A stretch of DNA of 37,942 nt from a virus. Below, one piece after another: positions 5,880-32,705 of this stretch. The stretch covers positions 1 to 37,942 of IMG/VR virus record IMGVR_UViG_3300007344_000079; one strand, written 5' to 3'. Numbering within the stretch: the first letter of the stretch is position 1; each line of letters begins with the position of its first letter. A model generated the notes under the pieces. The model worked only from the letters and a program-made list of their open reading frames with translations, made no database searches and was not told where the DNA came from. The translations under genes were made by a program, and so were the position numbers.

Positions 5880-6027
5880 GATAAAAGAGTTATTAATTAA
5901 GAATGGTTGGATTGAAACGAATAACATAAAACCAACATTTAAAAAGGACGATGTATTTATAAGGGTTGAGGTGTGGGGCGTAACAGATAAAGGTGGTTGT
6001 ACAAAAGTAATTGATTTAACTAAATAA
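5872..6027 (+). CDS. 51-aa hypothetical protein
   Basis: ATG 5872 lies within the last codons of the DUF616 gene, and the stop is TAA 6025-6027. The product starts with a short helix (MGEIKELLIKNGW), then beta-prone segments DVFIRVEVWGV and TKVIDLTK. The pattern of a short helix ending in NGW then a beta sheet recurs in tiny Bacteroidota phage proteins, but no function is known. Too short for most ORF searches. Confidence 0.5.
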   Translation: MGEIKELLIKNGWIETNNIKPTFKKDDVFIRVEVWGVTDKGGCTKVIDLTK

Positions 6028-6038
6028 ACATAAGTAAT

Positions 6039-6212
6039 ATGAAAAAAGGAATAATATTTATAATGATTGCAGTAGCTCTTTTTTATGGGTTGACGTATTT
6101 AATGACTGAACTATCATTTGATTACTGGTGGCATTTTCCCACATATGTAGTTGGTGGTGTTTTAATGATATTATTTATTGTAATTGGGTGTTATAATATT
6201 TTATCAAAATGA
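6039..6212 (+). CDS. 57-aa two-span membrane protein
   Basis: ATG 6039 to TGA 6210-6212, the stop overlapping the next ATG as ATGA. Two hydrophobic helices (about residues 4-22 and 37-54) flank a short loop with FDYWWHFP. It is a predicted inner-membrane protein. Its place between two sugar-transfer genes could point to lipid-linked glycan handling, but no homology supports that. Confidence 0.5.
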   Translation: MKKGIIFIMIAVALFYGLTYLMTELSFDYWWHFPTYVVGGVLMILFIVIGCYNILSK

Positions 6213-6934
6213 AAATAACAATAGTGACAGCAATATGGCAACGTCCCGAAGTTTGGGATATGTTTAAACAAGGTGTAAGACGTTTAAGAAACCAATACAA
6301 CGATGTTGATGTTCAAGTCTGTGTTAGTGGTTCAGAGGGTGGAGCCTCTCAAAACAGATGTAAAGAAAAGTGGATTCACTATGTTGAAATAGAAAACAAT
6401 CCTTTAGGTAGAAAGATGAACGCTGCATTAACATTAGCAAAACAAACTAATGCAGATTATTATTTGTTAATGGGTAGTGATGATATTATCTGCAATAACT
6501 TATTTGATTTATATTTAGATTATATTGAGCAAGAGATTGACTACATTTATTTAATGGACGGGTACTTCTTTGACACAACAACTAAGCGTTCTTTATATTG
6601 GGGTGGTTATGCTGATAAATTAAACTTAGGCAGACCACTTGGAGCAGGTAGAATGTTAAGTAAAAGATTAGTAGAGAAAATGGATTATAAGTGTTGGTAT
6701 GATGTTAAACTAAGTGGATTATTAGACCAAGCAATGGATGAGAAGTTGGCAGAGATTGATTATACTAAGCAAGAAATATATTGCAGAGATAACGATTGTA
6801 TGTTGTTAGATATTAAGAGCAGTACTAATATGACAAAGTTTGCTAAATGGAATAATACAGAGTTTATACATACTGATATTATTAAAAATTATTTACCTAT
6901 ATTTGAATTTAATAAAATATATTATGTCAAATAA
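6209..6934 (+). CDS. glycosyltransferase family 2-like protein
   Basis: A 241-residue protein. It starts with the strand KITIVTAIWQRPE, has NNPLGRKMNAALTLAKQ typical of the helix before the DxD strand in GT-A enzymes, and then YYLLMGSDDI (about residues 84-93) with an SDD metal-binding motif. The WGGYADKL and LGAGRMLSKRLVEKM stretches fit the acceptor loop region. It probably transfers a sugar or decorates a surface structure. It is coupled to the upstream membrane gene by ATGA and overlaps the next gene. Confidence 0.75.
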   Translation: MKITIVTAIWQRPEVWDMFKQGVRRLRNQYNDVDVQVCVSGSEGGASQNRCKEKWIHYVEIENNPLGRKMNAALTLAKQTNADYYLLMGSDDIICNNLFDLYLDYIEQEIDYIYLMDGYFFDTTTKRSLYWGGYADKLNLGRPLGAGRMLSKRLVEKMDYKCWYDVKLSGLLDQAMDEKLAEIDYTKQEIYCRDNDCMLLDIKSSTNMTKFAKWNNTEFIHTDIIKNYLPIFEFNKIYYVK

Positions 6935-7109
6935 AACAAAAGTGTATTTAGTAAGTGAAAAAGAGCCTTCATTCAACACAATAATTGAGGCTAAGAAAGG
7001 AGTAAAAGGAAAATGGGAAAAGGTTAAAAGAACTTATCAAGGAGATAAACCCGAATACAATTTTCCTAAAGAAGATAACGGATTTACTCATTGGAGGTAT
7101 TTATTATGA
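6924..7109 (+). CDS. 61-aa hypothetical protein
   Basis: I place the start at ATG 6924, because an upstream in-frame start would overlap the glycosyltransferase by about 95 bases and add an unlikely hydrophobic head. The protein is basic and ends in GFTHWRYLL, faintly like the THW-x-PL ending of DUF551 proteins. Its stop overlaps the next start as ATGA. Function unknown. Confidence 0.5.
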   Translation: MSNKTKVYLVSEKEPSFNTIIEAKKGVKGKWEKVKRTYQGDKPEYNFPKEDNGFTHWRYLL

Positions 7110-7702
7110 ATAATAAAATAAGCCAATTTGCTTTTGTTTCTCCAAACGCTATTATAGGAGATAACAACATCATAGAGGAGGGTGTTGTGATAAAAGATAA
7201 TGTAGTAATAGGAGATAACAACCATATCTACCCATATACAACAATCGGATTAGCTGGAGAAGTTAGAGGAGATGACAATATAAAAGGCAAAGTAGTAATA
7301 GGTAATAACAATGTAATAAGAGAGTTTACAAGTATTCAATCCCCTCAAAGGTATGATTACACTCAAATAGGTAACAACTGCTTTATAATGGATAAAACGC
7401 ATATTGCACACGATTGTATTGTAGGAGATAATGTTACTATTGCACCAATGGTTACTTTAGGCGGTTGTGTTAATGTTGGCAACTATACTAACTTAGGCAT
7501 TAACTGTTCTATACATCAGAGGCTAACAATCGGAGAAAGTTGTATGATTGGAATGGGTGCTATAATAGTTAAAGATATACCTAACTATGAAAAGTGGGTT
7601 GGAGTACCTGCTAAGTGTATCGGTTGGAATTTACTTGGCTTAAGAAAGCGTTACCCAAATAAAACAGAAGAAGAAATTATAGAACTATGTGTGGTATCTT
7701 AG
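7106..7702 (+). CDS. LpxA-like left-handed beta-helix acyltransferase
   Basis: A 198-residue protein made almost wholly of hexapeptide repeats (I-G-D-N-N-V type) through about residue 165, so a trimeric left-handed beta-helix. The AHDC motif (A101-C104) carries the His used as catalytic base in LpxA, and the ending GWNLLGLRKRYPN resembles the LpxA junction to its C-terminal domain, which is mostly absent (LpxA is about 260 residues). It could O- or N-acylate a sugar nucleotide. ATG 7106 has a GGAGG at 7093-7097, a rare clear Shine-Dalgarno here; a TTG at 7091 is less likely. Confidence 0.8.
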   Translation: MNNKISQFAFVSPNAIIGDNNIIEEGVVIKDNVVIGDNNHIYPYTTIGLAGEVRGDDNIKGKVVIGNNNVIREFTSIQSPQRYDYTQIGNNCFIMDKTHIAHDCIVGDNVTIAPMVTLGGCVNVGNYTNLGINCSIHQRLTIGESCMIGMGAIIVKDIPNYEKWVGVPAKCIGWNLLGLRKRYPNKTEEEIIELCVVS

Positions 7703-28131: not shown

Positions 28132-28590
28132 ATGAAATTAAAAGATTTAAAAAAAGAAATTCCATTTCAATGGAGAGTTCAACAAGCAACAGAATATGGA
28201 GCTAATTGTGTAGCATATATTGATGCAAGAGATGTTCAAGATTTGTTAGATGATGTTTGTGGTCAAGATGGATGGCAATGTAAATATGAAGAACATAAAG
28301 GTAATTTATTTTGTAGTATAGGCATAAAAATAGGAGATACTTTTGTATGGAAGTCAGACTGTGGAACTGAAAGCAATATAGAAAAACAAAAGGGAGAAAG
28401 TTCTGATGCTTTTAAACGTGCTGCTGTAATGTGGGGAATAGGTAGGTTTTTGTATTCTAAAGAGATTATAAAATTAGACTCAATGAAAAATAAAGCTGGT
28501 AAATGGGTAGCAAGTTATAACGGTAAAATACTTTATGGAAAACAAGTTTCTAAGGCTTGTAACTATATACTTGAAAATAAAGAAATATGA
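28132..28590 (+). CDS. Rad52/Rad22-like single-strand annealing protein
   Basis: A 152-residue protein with VAYIDARDVQDLLDDVCGQD, GWQCKYEEHKGNLFCSIGIK, DCGTESNIEKQKGESSDAFK and AAVMWGIGRFLY. These are the core motifs of the phage Rad52/22 superfamily, including the ESSDAFKRAAVxxGIGRxLY helix. It would coat single-stranded ends and promote annealing during phage recombination. A DUF3127 SSB-like protein and nucleases lie downstream in the same operon. Compact size agrees with phage members. Confidence 0.9.
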   Translation: MKLKDLKKEIPFQWRVQQATEYGANCVAYIDARDVQDLLDDVCGQDGWQCKYEEHKGNLFCSIGIKIGDTFVWKSDCGTESNIEKQKGESSDAFKRAAVMWGIGRFLYSKEIIKLDSMKNKAGKWVASYNGKILYGKQVSKACNYILENKEI

Positions 28591-29184: not shown

Positions 29185-30480
29185 ATGAAGATTTATAATA
29201 AAAATAAAAATGTTTATGATGCTGCTAATGAAAGAATTGAATTTATATTTAAAAACTTTAAAAGAATATATGTTTCATTCTCTGGTGGTAAAGATTCTGG
29301 TATAATGTTAAACTTATGTTTAGACTATATGAGAAAAAACAACATAACTGAAAAGATAGGATTAATGGTTATGGATAATGAAGCTAACTATGAGTATTCT
29401 CTAAAGTTTATGCACGAAATAGTACAAGAAAACTTAGATTTATTAGATGTTTATTGGTGTTGTCTACCAATAACACTTCCTTGTACAGTTAGTAGTTATG
29501 AGATAGATTGGCAATGTTGGGGTGTTAATGATGAGAGTAGATGGATTAGACCAATGCCAAAACAAGATTATATAGTGAATATAGATAATCATAAATTTGA
29601 TTTCTTCCAAGAGAATATGGGATATGATGAGTTTTGGGATAAATTTGGTGATTGGTTTGCACAAGGCGAAAGTTGTGCTTGTTTGATTGGTATTCGTACT
29701 GATGAAAGTTTGAACAGGTATAGGGCTATTATGAATAAAAAGAAAGGAATGATTAATAACTTATGTTGGACAAAGAAAAATACTGAATATGTTTATAATT
29801 GTTACCCTATTTATGATTGGAGAACTGATGATGTTTGGGTTGCAAACGCAAAGTTTGACTGGAAATATAACGAGCTTTATGATATATTTTGGAAGGCTGG
29901 TTTAACAGTAGCACAAATGAGAGTTGCAAGTCCATTTATGAGTGAAGCTAAGAGTAGTTTGAATTTATACAAGGTTATCGATTCTCACGTGTGGGCAAGA
30001 CTTTGTGCAAGAGTTTCTGGAGCTAACTTTATGGCTACATATGGTAAACAGCTAAACTATCGTTCATTTTCTTTGCCAGAAGGACACACTTGGAAGAGTT
30101 TTACAAAGTTCTTGTTAGATACTTTACCTAATGAGTCTGGAGAAAATTTTAAGAAACGCTTTATTCAGTCAATTAAGTACTGGTGGAGAATAGGGCGTGG
30201 GTTGCCAGATAATGTTATTGAAGATATGAAGGAAAATAAAATAGAATTTATTGAGGGTGAAAAAACAAGGCACGGAAATAAGGATAAAACGTGTGTAAGA
30301 ATGTTGCCCCCAGACCACCTTGATATGTTGAAATGTCATAATTCGGATGTTACAAGCTGGAAAAGATTTGCTATAACTATATTAAAAAATGACCATACTT
30401 GTAAATATTTAGGGTTAGCACCAACACACGAACAAGCAAAAAGACAAAGAGAAATACAAACTAAATATAAAAACATATAA
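29185..30480 (+). CDS. ibrA: IbrA-like PAPS-reductase-family protein (DUF3440)
   Basis: A 431-residue protein with SGGKDS (residues 33-38), the PP-loop that binds ATP or PAPS. The characteristic IbrA/DUF3440 segments CACLIGIRTDESLNRYRAI, YPIYDWRTDDVWVAN, QMRVASPFMSEAKSSL and ARVSGANF follow. The last 45 residues hold a small domain (WKRFAITILKNDHTCKYLG) also found as a separate gene at 31822. In E. coli IbrA and IbrB raise expression of eib prophage genes by an unknown mechanism. The fold activates ATP or sulfate donors, so a nucleotide or sulfur chemistry role is possible. Cofactor-binding cysteines of assimilatory reductases are not evident. Confidence 0.85.
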   Translation: MKIYNKNKNVYDAANERIEFIFKNFKRIYVSFSGGKDSGIMLNLCLDYMRKNNITEKIGLMVMDNEANYEYSLKFMHEIVQENLDLLDVYWCCLPITLPCTVSSYEIDWQCWGVNDESRWIRPMPKQDYIVNIDNHKFDFFQENMGYDEFWDKFGDWFAQGESCACLIGIRTDESLNRYRAIMNKKKGMINNLCWTKKNTEYVYNCYPIYDWRTDDVWVANAKFDWKYNELYDIFWKAGLTVAQMRVASPFMSEAKSSLNLYKVIDSHVWARLCARVSGANFMATYGKQLNYRSFSLPEGHTWKSFTKFLLDTLPNESGENFKKRFIQSIKYWWRIGRGLPDNVIEDMKENKIEFIEGEKTRHGNKDKTCVRMLPPDHLDMLKCHNSDVTSWKRFAITILKNDHTCKYLGLAPTHEQAKRQREIQTKYKNI

Positions 30481-30491
30481 AAACAAATAAG

Positions 30492-30959
30492 ATGAAAGTA
30501 AGAACTATTAAAGAAATTGAAAACACAGAAAGAGATGTTAATTTTAAGGAGGGTAAAAGTTTGAGAATTGTATTAGCTAAAGATAATATGGGATTCTCAA
30601 TACATAAAACAATAATACCAAAAGGGCAAAAAGGTCATTGGCATTATAAACATCATTTAGAATCTTGTTACTGTATAAAAGGTAGTGGAATTTTAACCAA
30701 CTTAAACACAAAAGAAGTTTTTAATATAAATGTTGACACCGTATATTCTTTAGATGATAATGATAATCACACATTTGAAGCTCTTGAAGATGTTGTTTTG
30801 ATAAGTGTTTTTAATCCACCAGTTACTGGAAATGAAATACACCAAAAAGATGGTAGTTATTCTATGAATAAAGCTAAAGATATTGTTTACTCAATAAGTG
30901 AATGCACAAATGATTATGATGCAATAGAAAAAGTTAATGAATTATTAATGAAAAAATAA
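30492..30959 (+). CDS. ectC: ectoine-synthase-like cupin (EctC family)
   Basis: A 155-residue protein aligning with EctC from end to end. Residues recalled from the Paenibacillus lautus enzyme occur at identical numbering: iron ligands E57, Y85 and H93, and substrate-site R25, T40, Y52, H55, G64, L87, F107, E115 and H117. Only the Trp expected at 21 and the Asn at 38 differ (Gly, His). VFNPPVTGNEIHQKDGSY is the family signature. EctC cyclises N-gamma-acetyl-diaminobutyrate to ectoine. No ectA or ectB is visible, so the substrate must come from the host or be something else. It sits between ibrA-like and ibrB-like genes. Confidence 0.85.
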   Translation: MKVRTIKEIENTERDVNFKEGKSLRIVLAKDNMGFSIHKTIIPKGQKGHWHYKHHLESCYCIKGSGILTNLNTKEVFNINVDTVYSLDDNDNHTFEALEDVVLISVFNPPVTGNEIHQKDGSYSMNKAKDIVYSISECTNDYDAIEKVNELLMKK

Positions 30960-30965
30960 AAAGAA

Positions 30966-31487
30966 ATGGAAAAGTTTATGTCACCAGTCTATAACGTACT
31001 TAGAGTTCCAATAGACAAAATACAAGCAAATGATTATAACCCTAATAGTGTTGCTCCACCAGAAATGGAACTACTTGAAACATCAATTTGGGAAGATGGA
31101 TATACTATGCCAGTTGTATGCTTTAGAGATGAAGAAAATGATAAATACATTGTTGTTGATGGATTCCACAGATATACAGTATTAAAAAACTCAAAAAGAA
31201 TATTTGATAGAGAAGAAGGGATGCTTCCAATATCTGTAATTGATAAGGAGCTTGGCGATAGAATGGCTTCTACTATTCGACATAATAGAGCAAGAGGTTC
31301 TCACAATTTAGAACTTATGAGTACTATAGTTAGTGAATTGGTTGAGATGGGGAAGGGTGATGCTTGGATATGTAAGCACGTTGGTATGTCTCCAGATGAA
31401 CTACTAAGAATGAAGCAAATAACTGGTTTAGCCTCATTATTTCAAAATAAAGATTTCTCAGATAGCTGGGATGCTGAAATGGTATGA
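30966..31487 (+). CDS. ibrB: IbrB-like ParB-domain protein
   Basis: A 173-residue protein. The N-terminus PVYNVLRVPIDKIQANDYNP, SIWEDGYTMPVV, VVDGFHRY (63-70) and RHNRARGSHN (105-114) are typical of IbrB and other ParB/Srx-like nuclease-fold proteins. The C-terminal part (WICKHVGMSPDELLRM) is an HTH. ParB-fold proteins bind CTP or DNA, and some act as nucleases. IbrB normally partners IbrA. It overlaps the next gene by 4 bases. Confidence 0.85.
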   Translation: MEKFMSPVYNVLRVPIDKIQANDYNPNSVAPPEMELLETSIWEDGYTMPVVCFRDEENDKYIVVDGFHRYTVLKNSKRIFDREEGMLPISVIDKELGDRMASTIRHNRARGSHNLELMSTIVSELVEMGKGDAWICKHVGMSPDELLRMKQITGLASLFQNKDFSDSWDAEMV

Positions 31488-31921
31488 TTCAAGTTTATCA
31501 TCCATATTGGAAGTGGGAATGCTATAAAAATGGTATGTGGTTAAAATCAAGTGACTATGATAATCAACTAAAAGAGGCTATCAAATTTACTGGAAACCAC
31601 ATACTTTATGGTAACGCAATGAATGAAGTTATTTATTCTTGGAGATACACAATAGAACACCACTTATCAAATAAATCAATTAATAGAAGAGCTTTTATTG
31701 GTCATTGTGCTGTATTTTATAAAAAATTAATACCTGAATATATTGTTAGGGATGCTTGGAAACATCTAAGCGACAAGCAAAGAACATTAGCAGACAATGA
31801 AGCAGAAAAAGCTATTAAAGAATGGGAATTATGGTACACAAAAAAGTTACAGATTATATCAAAACTTGGGAGTCAAGAGGATATAAAGAAGGGATACCAG
31901 ATGAAGCTCCTTTTGAGTTAA
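31484..31921 (+). CDS. 145-aa conserved phage protein
   Basis: Trp- and Tyr-rich at the start (HPYWKWECYKNGMW), then INRRAFIGHCAVFYKKLIPE and IVRDAWKHLSDKQRTLADN. I recognise this pattern from phage proteins of unknown function in marine and enterobacterial genomes, often near DNA metabolism genes. The last 30 residues overlap the next gene in another frame. ATGA coupling puts it in the IbrAB-like unit. Confidence 0.65.
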   Translation: MIQVYHPYWKWECYKNGMWLKSSDYDNQLKEAIKFTGNHILYGNAMNEVIYSWRYTIEHHLSNKSINRRAFIGHCAVFYKKLIPEYIVRDAWKHLSDKQRTLADNEAEKAIKEWELWYTKKLQIISKLGSQEDIKKGYQMKLLLS

Positions 31922-32091
31922 AAGATAAAGTTCCTTCATATAAAAATATATGTATAGCTTTATTAAAAAATGATATGAATTTAACTTCATTAGGATATAA
32001 GCCAAAATATACTAAGTATTATTCTGTTTTAAAAAGAATAGAAATAGATGCCAGACCAACAAAGTATAAACAACTAAAGTTAAAAATATGA
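31822..32091 (+). CDS. stand-alone DUF3440 C-terminal-domain protein
   Basis: 89 residues from ATG 31822, or 86 from the in-frame ATG 31831. It overlaps the preceding gene by about 100 bases. The core YKNICIALLKNDMNLTSLGY parallels the C-terminal WKRFAITILKNDHTCKYLGL of the IbrA-like protein, and TWESRGYKEGIPDEAP precedes it as in the longer protein family. It may be a detached accessory domain for IbrA or a duplicate. The stop overlaps the next ATG. Confidence 0.65.
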   Translation: MGIMVHKKVTDYIKTWESRGYKEGIPDEAPFELKDKVPSYKNICIALLKNDMNLTSLGYKPKYTKYYSVLKRIEIDARPTKYKQLKLKI

Positions 32092-32705
32092 ATTTACCTA
32101 AAAAAGATAAAAACGGCAATAGTTATTTAAGCTATTCACAAATATCACTATTTAAAAGAGATAAAGACGAATACTACCAAAACTATATTATAGGTAAAAA
32201 GTTTGAGGGTAATGAATATACTGATTTTGGAAGCAAGGTTGGTGAGGCTTTAGAAAAAAATGACTTTACAAGTTTTAGCGAACAAGAAAGTAATATATTA
32301 AAACAAGTTACAAGGTTAGATGAATTTGAAAGGCGTGTAATACTAAAGTATGAAGGTTTTTATATTGTCGGATATGTTGACACAAATAAAAAAGACTTAA
32401 CAAGAATAATAGATTATAAAACTGGAGGATTAAAAAAGGAGTGGCAATATGTTAAACCAGAGTATACACAGCTACATATTTACGCTTTATCAATAAGGCA
32501 AGAAACTGGAATAACGCCGACCAAAGCAAGTGTTGAATTTATAAGAAGAACTGGAAATGCTTATAAAGGTCAAAAACTTAAAGTTGCAAATGAAAGTCCT
32601 ACAACAATAGAAGTAGATGTTAGTATTAATAAATTAAAAAGAGTTTACTGGGAAACATTAGAAACAGCAAAACAGATAGAAAAATTTTATAAAAAAACAT
32701 TATGA
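32088..32705 (+). CDS. Cas4/RecB-like PD-(D/E)XK nuclease
   Basis: A 205-residue protein with YLSYSQISLFKRDKDEYY at the N-terminus (RecB-nuclease-type start), D98 in IVGYVDTN, the DYK triad residues D109 and K111 in IIDYKTGG, and QLHIYAL (128-134) as the Q-x-x-x-Y motif. It would be a metal-dependent DNA exonuclease used in phage recombination with the Rad52-like protein. The cysteine cluster of iron-sulfur Cas4 proteins is absent. Confidence 0.85.
   Translation: MNLPKKDKNGNSYLSYSQISLFKRDKDEYYQNYIIGKKFEGNEYTDFGSKVGEALEKNDFTSFSEQESNILKQVTRLDEFERRVILKYEGFYIVGYVDTNKKDLTRIIDYKTGGLKKEWQYVKPEYTQLHIYALSIRQETGITPTKASVEFIRRTGNAYKGQKLKVANESPTTIEVDVSINKLKRVYWETLETAKQIEKFYKKTL

Follow-up and report, generated by a model that had tools for sequence, protein, structure and literature searches.

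A five-gene module in bacterial viruses

Positions 29,185 to 32,091 of the virus record IMGVR_UViG_3300007344_000079 (IMG/VR; 37,942 nucleotides, the whole of which is hereafter called the window) carry five plus-strand genes. They encode an IbrA-like PP-loop protein, an EctC-like cupin, a ParB-like protein with a helix-turn-helix (HTH) region, an all-helical protein and a detached DUF3440 tail, and together they form one travelling unit. The IbrA/ParB core of this unit probably makes a group that is tailored by ectoine-type chemistry and attached to DNA or RNA. The initial annotation had listed the same five genes in the same order, with these coordinates and with short gaps or overlaps, and had treated them as one coupled module, possibly a modification, anti-defence or regulatory system. 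All five open reading frames proved to be real, and the coupling was borne out by co-occurrence, by shuffled order with constant content, by EctC–ParB fusions and by correlated divergence.

The IMG/VR scans used short conserved peptides as patterns and kept the best 80 matches; the locus counts are therefore samples rather than totals. A scan seeded by the cupin alone yielded 82 distinct loci. IbrA was present at every one of them and ParB at 81, the lone exception lying on a contig that ends right after the cupin. The reverse scan, seeded by ParB alone, recovered the cupin in 65 of 66 further loci. Occurrence of the cupin at random unrelated places had been named earlier as the outcome that would make the association accidental; the scans showed that it is not. 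Viral relatives of ParB number more than 590. Wider scans, with duplicates removed by ParB sequence, gave 219 distinct IbrA/ParB loci; 120 of these contained the EctC cupin, a conservation of the five-gene content that is far beyond chance. Gene orders were many among these 120 modules and none had mixed strands. Because the order is shuffled while gene content and strand stay fixed, the module is almost certainly a functional unit. The cupin was fused to ParB in 48 of the 120, through a linker of ≤ 5 residues in 47 of the 48 fusions. Furthermore, the pairwise divergences of the five genes were mutually correlated across 104 complete loci (Mantel r 0.39–0.77; 0 of 999 permutations as high).

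The closest database phages were Pseudoalteromonas phage XCL1123 and Mycobacterium phages Gaia and Nebkiss, in which an IbrA gene 63% identical to that of the window is followed by a cupin with 44%–48% identity. The ParB gene or domain of XCL1123 and Gaia was 77%–78% identical to the window protein, and both phages also have genes 4 and 5, which places the module in cultured phages. The host of Gaia may itself produce ectoine. Gaia gp104 unites cupin and ParB in one protein annotated as ‘ectoine synthase/ParB multidomain protein’. This protein and the XCL1123 protein of the same label are direct homologues; a PAPS-reductase-like gene precedes each of them, and the helical protein and the DUF3440 tail are encoded after them. 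The existing description consists of the annotation label only. In a genome scan, the only complete module was found on a contig of a Planctomycetota metagenome-assembled genome (L166), the cupin of which groups with the viral ones; this contig may be a prophage or contamination.

The EctC-like cupin

The second gene (30,492–30,959; 155 amino acids) encodes a cupin that was initially called ectoine-synthase-like, an assignment upheld by scores above curated cut-offs for Ectoine_synth (PF06339; 154.1 bits, cut-off 27) and the NCBIfam ectoine synthase subfamily PRK13290 (157.9 bits, cut-off 128). The protein also matched solved EctC structures (E = 5e-26). Its residues were compared with those mapped in the Paenibacillus lautus enzyme, and the iron ligands of EctC were taken from the same study (PMC6344544). 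The window cupin keeps the ligands Glu-57, Tyr-85 and His-93, has Gly in place of Trp-21 and carries the phage-specific residues Cys-59 and Phe-95. Across the viral cupins, the iron ligands and most substrate residues were conserved in 112–113 of 113 sequences (Glu-57, 113/113; Tyr-84/85, 113/113; His-92/93, 112/113), and the ligands were present in all 76 cellular proteins. Arg-25, Thr-40, Tyr-52 and, mostly, Phe-106/107 were also kept in the viral proteins. The segment around Trp-21 lacked Trp in 112 of the 113 viral cupins, while Trp was present in 76 of 76 cellular ones. Its place was occupied by Phe in about half of the viral sequences and by Gly in most others, with the sole Trp elsewhere; Phe at this position might substitute for Trp. 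In ectoine gene clusters, Trp-21 is reported to be fully conserved (437 EctC proteins); it is reportedly also kept in 145 orphan EctC proteins, where it is sometimes shifted by two residues, and its mutation is reported to leave 9.7% of the activity (PMC6344544).

Cys-59 belonged to one of the scan patterns, yet it also occurred in ParB-seeded loci outside that pattern. His-51, considered as a further phage-specific change, was rejected, as 40 of the 76 cellular EctC proteins also carry it. In a tree with 96 viral cupins and 53 sequences from outside the module, most of them cellular, the viral ones fell on one side of a branch with a support of 100/99. BLAST of the flanking regions fetched for the viral modules detected neither an EctA nor an EctB homologue; for comparison, EctB was near 51 of 79 cellular EctC genes. 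Given the retained iron ligands, the loss of Trp-21 and the missing EctA/EctB, the viral cupin is an enzyme of the EctC family, one with probably similar chemistry but a different substrate. One record labelled as a human faecal ‘Bacteriophage sp.’ (L019; MT835761.1) contained an ordinary EctC with Trp-21 kept, which adjoins EctB and lacks IbrA/ParB; this record is probably bacterial DNA.

Tailoring enzymes within the module

In two contigs, L056 and L058, a homologue of the ectoine hydroxylase EctD lies between IbrA and the cupin. The two proteins are only 36% identical and both contain the WHSDFETWH signature; their scores (173.2 and 285.0 bits, respectively) are below the equivalog cut-off of TIGR02408 (336.5), and the L058 protein matched the solved EctD structure 3emr (E = 9e-77). 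When IMG/VR was scanned for EctD signature patterns, these two contigs were the only ones returned, with the gene inside the module in both cases, and the patterns found no match in GenBank phages; they were exact, and some EctD variants would escape them. Just downstream of its EctD homologue, L056 encodes a triple fusion of EctC, an O-methyltransferase and ParB (6001–7497), in which a middle part of about 195 residues matched the O-methyltransferase MycE (3ssm, E = 5e-30). Thus, this one phage module has genes for cyclisation, hydroxylation and O-methylation next to one another.

Where relatives lack the cupin, a GNAT acetyltransferase gene, a class I methyltransferase-like gene or a peroxiredoxin gene can fill the slot that separates IbrA from ParB. 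The GNAT slot genes comprise a cluster of seven (L284, L285, L421, L430, L330, L363 and L435) and that of L269; GNAT models matched those of L284, L430 and L269, and the L363 gene had no Pfam match. In five loci (L257, L263, L344, L382 and L387), the slot gene is the methyltransferase-like one, which has weak similarity to CmoB and WbdD. The peroxiredoxin gene takes the place of the cupin in one contig (L093:3868–4617), and no such slot gene was found in other phages. Its pairing with ParB is perhaps not accidental, because sulfiredoxin, to which ParB folds are related, is the repair partner of peroxiredoxin. In known phage base-hypermodification pathways, small-molecule tailoring enzymes are exchanged around a constant core. 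The arrangement of the slot resembles these pathways, a resemblance that falls short of proof.

Core proteins and gene organisation

The first gene (29,185–30,480; 431 amino acids) encodes an IbrA-like PP-loop ATP-pyrophosphatase with a C-terminal DUF3440 domain (DUF3440, 190.9 bits, cut-off 25; PAPS_reduct, 41.1 bits; phrog_2302, E = 2e-110). The PP-loop motif SGGKDS is kept together with a GIRxxESxxR motif. The initial assignment to the PAPS reductase family needs one correction: ECG(L/I), the catalytic motif that true PAPS reductases carry, was absent from the window protein and 200 of 205 relatives, occurring in 5 of the 205. ‘PAPS reductase’ is therefore a family label only, and sulfate reduction is unlikely for IbrA. 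As in IbrA/IbrB pairs, the PP-loop and DUF3440 protein shares an operon with a ParB-like gene. IbrA is only distantly related to DndC, TilS and LarE, with weak matches to TilS/TtcA, and scored 23.2 bits against the DndC equivalog (cut-off 290.4).

After a gap of 6 nt from the cupin gene, which itself begins 11 nt after the IbrA gene, the third gene (30,966–31,487; 173 amino acids) encodes the IbrB/ParB-like protein. The match to phrog_2159 (E = 8e-79) agrees with its earlier designation as ParB-like. The motifs VVDGFHRY and RHNRARG lie in a ParB-N/sulfiredoxin NTPase core. A structural model of moderate confidence (predicted local distance difference test score, pLDDT, 76.5) showed a ParB-N domain followed by an HTH region, and it matched KorB, Noc and DNA-bound ParB structures, followed by SbnI, free serine kinase and sulfiredoxin.

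Gene 4 (31,484–31,921; 145 amino acids) overlaps the ParB gene by 4 nt (ATGA). It had no family in Pfam, PHROG, NCBIfam or PADLOC. AlphaFold2 gave a confident all-helical model (mean pLDDT 92.9), for which Foldseek found no significant match in the PDB (best E = 0.68; Z < 4 at a second look); the one clear match in BFVD was A0A649V0K8, which looks like a member of the protein's own family. A similarity to DarA_C was unsupported (1 of 12 members, E = 0.0088). In Microcystis phage Mwe-JY13, a homologue of gene 4 (L236:4567–4992) is annotated as ‘ParB/sulfiredoxin’ and has no ParB match; it is probably misannotated. Gene 5 (31,822–32,091; 89 amino acids), previously described as a detached DUF3440 C-terminal domain, was confirmed as a stand-alone C-terminal piece of DUF3440, with a score just below the Pfam cut-off (24.6 bits, cut-off 25) and a match to phrog_15645 (E = 3e-8), a family matched by 11 of 12 relatives. 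Genes 4 and 5 were also found in modules without the cupin, and simple IbrA–ParB pairs have neither. Their presence in the cupin-less modules assigns them to the core that IbrA and ParB form in this branch. The two genes overlap by 100 nt in different frames (31,822–31,921), and the protein is conserved in both frames among close relatives. A programmed frameshift joining them was rejected, because their frame relation, derived by hand from the coordinates of relatives, is −1 in close and +1 in distant relatives.

The window also encodes a terminase, a head protease and a tape-measure protein. The module lies in a recombination region, as an Erf/Rad52-like annealing protein is encoded upstream (28,132–28,590) and a PD-(D/E)XK exonuclease downstream (32,088–32,705), the latter gene overlapping gene 5 by 4 nt. 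Replication and recombination genes were near the module in other phages as well. GIY-YIG homing endonuclease-like genes were recognised by eye within modules (L069, L075, L078, L052 and L139), including one in the Gaia sequence; the one gene tested had no Pfam match. The PD-(D/E)XK and homing endonuclease-like genes in some modules were taken for neighbouring genes or mobile insertions rather than for enzymes of the module.

Relationship to known systems

The IbrA/IbrB pairs of prophages, such as those of Streptococcus phage CHPC877 and Escherichia phage PhiR5_2, contain the same PP-loop and DUF3440 IbrA followed by a ParB-like partner, and the window ParB is 64% identical to the Streptococcus phage protein over almost its full length. 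Those pairs lack the cupin, the helical protein and the extra DUF3440 tail, whereas the window module has all three, with EctC lying between IbrA and ParB or fused to ParB. With EctC (5bxx, 5onm) and the ectABC(D) clusters, the module shares the cupin family, the iron ligands, most substrate residues and, in two phages, an EctD homologue beside the cupin. It differs from them in lacking ectA and ectB, in the loss of Trp-21, in forming a separate clade, and in its near-obligate IbrA/ParB context and ParB fusion. The Dnd phosphorothioate system likewise combines a PP-loop ATP-pyrophosphatase (DndC) with a ParB-superfamily protein (DndB); the phage module has ectoine-type or other tailoring enzymes in place of the sulfur-transfer partners of Dnd. 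The literature searches made found no paper describing an EctC–ParB–IbrA module. The gene families are known and the EctC/ParB fusion has already been annotated, and the module represents a new form of the IbrA/IbrB modules.

Proposed function and alternatives

The presence of EctD, an O-methyltransferase and GNAT in the modules argues for chemistry rather than pure regulation, and ectoine-type ring chemistry by the module is likely. That a nucleic acid is its target is somewhat favoured, because ParB has an HTH region and the module lies in a replication and recombination neighbourhood; the weak relatedness of IbrA to DndC was counted towards the same link. For the same two reasons, DNA is preferred to RNA. 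By analogy with TilS-like PP-loop enzymes, IbrA would adenylate a carbonyl of the target with ATP, and an amino-acid-like amine would then be joined to the adenylated carbonyl. The cupin, often covalently tied to ParB, would close this side chain into an ectoine-type ring (a cyclic amidine), which EctD and the O-methyltransferase, where present, could hydroxylate and cap. ParB might use its HTH and nucleoside triphosphate-binding core to keep the enzymes on the nucleic acid, for which the replicating DNA of the phage itself is the likeliest candidate, with the helical protein and the DUF3440 tail as putative subunits of the complex. Such a modification could shield the genome of the phage or change processes in the host. 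In its full form, as a phage modification system built on the IbrA/ParB core and acting on DNA, this model is tentative, and its more specific outcome, phage DNA with a hypermodified base bearing an ectoine-type ring that is EctD-hydroxylated and O-methylated in some phages, is rather doubtful.

Several observations weigh against this proposal. We infer both target and product, and the adenylation step by analogy only; RNA or a free metabolite may be acted on instead. No ectA- or ectB-like gene that could account for an acylated diamine was found in the fetched flanks. EctD occurs in only two modules and the O-methyltransferase in one. ParB could be an amino-acid kinase, given its SerK and SbnI matches, or a regulator. 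The same enzymology directed at tRNA or another RNA, for example to guard tRNAs against anticodon nucleases of the host or to adjust translation, would suit the weak TilS/TtcA matches of the PP-loop enzyme IbrA and the weak similarity of one slot methyltransferase to the tRNA enzyme CmoB. The resemblance of ParB to DNA-binding KorB, Noc and ParB, the location among replication and recombination genes and the lack of any tRNA gene found in the window make this unlikely. Alternatively, the cupin could be a non-catalytic ligand sensor and the module a regulator, either of transcription or of a partition-like kind. In favour of this, annotations name IbrA/IbrB as co-activators of prophage gene expression, ParB carries the HTH region and many cupins are sensor domains. 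Against it stand the near invariance of the iron ligands and most catalytic-core residues among the 113 viral cupins and the fact that the partners (EctD, the MycE-like methyltransferase, GNAT and peroxiredoxin) are enzymes; a regulator is accordingly also improbable.

Ectoine made by the phage to aid its host in salt is the function proposed for viral ectoine genes in recent virome papers, which treat them as osmolyte or salt-stress genes (PMC13079714, PMC13288924). Such auxiliary metabolism would be in line with the placement of the cupin in the ectoine synthase family by sequence and with the EctD homologues of two modules. This interpretation is doubtful because of the module context, the missing ectA and ectB and the loss from 112 of 113 viral cupins of a Trp needed for activity (PMC6344544); near-obligate linkage and fusion to ParB would be unexpected for an osmolyte enzyme, and Gaia came from soil, not from a saline site. 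We consider it very unlikely. Equally remote is a module in which ParB serves as a SerK/SbnI-like small-amino-acid kinase and the cupin cyclises a diamino acid, yielding a free, diffusible siderophore-, signal- or inhibitor-like metabolite. Both the profile and the model of ParB matched SbnI and free serine kinase, but the protein also has an HTH region, and neither an exporter nor an amine-forming pyridoxal phosphate enzyme was noticed among the recurrent neighbours.

Implications for phage biology

IbrA/IbrB pairs occur widely among phages and prophages, and we know of no biochemistry for them. The module offers a chemical handle on these pairs: it ties a DNA-binding ParB to cyclisation of the ectoine type, to hydroxylation and to O-methylation, and homologous modules are available in cultured phages. 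Viral ‘ectoine synthase’ calls in virome studies may belong to the IbrA/ParB module instead. To our knowledge, no class of nucleic-acid modification with an ectoine ring has been described, and such a product, if true, would be categorically new. That very different bacterial viruses carry the same compact five-gene kit suggests an undescribed chemical modification pathway, of which a nucleic acid is the probable target.

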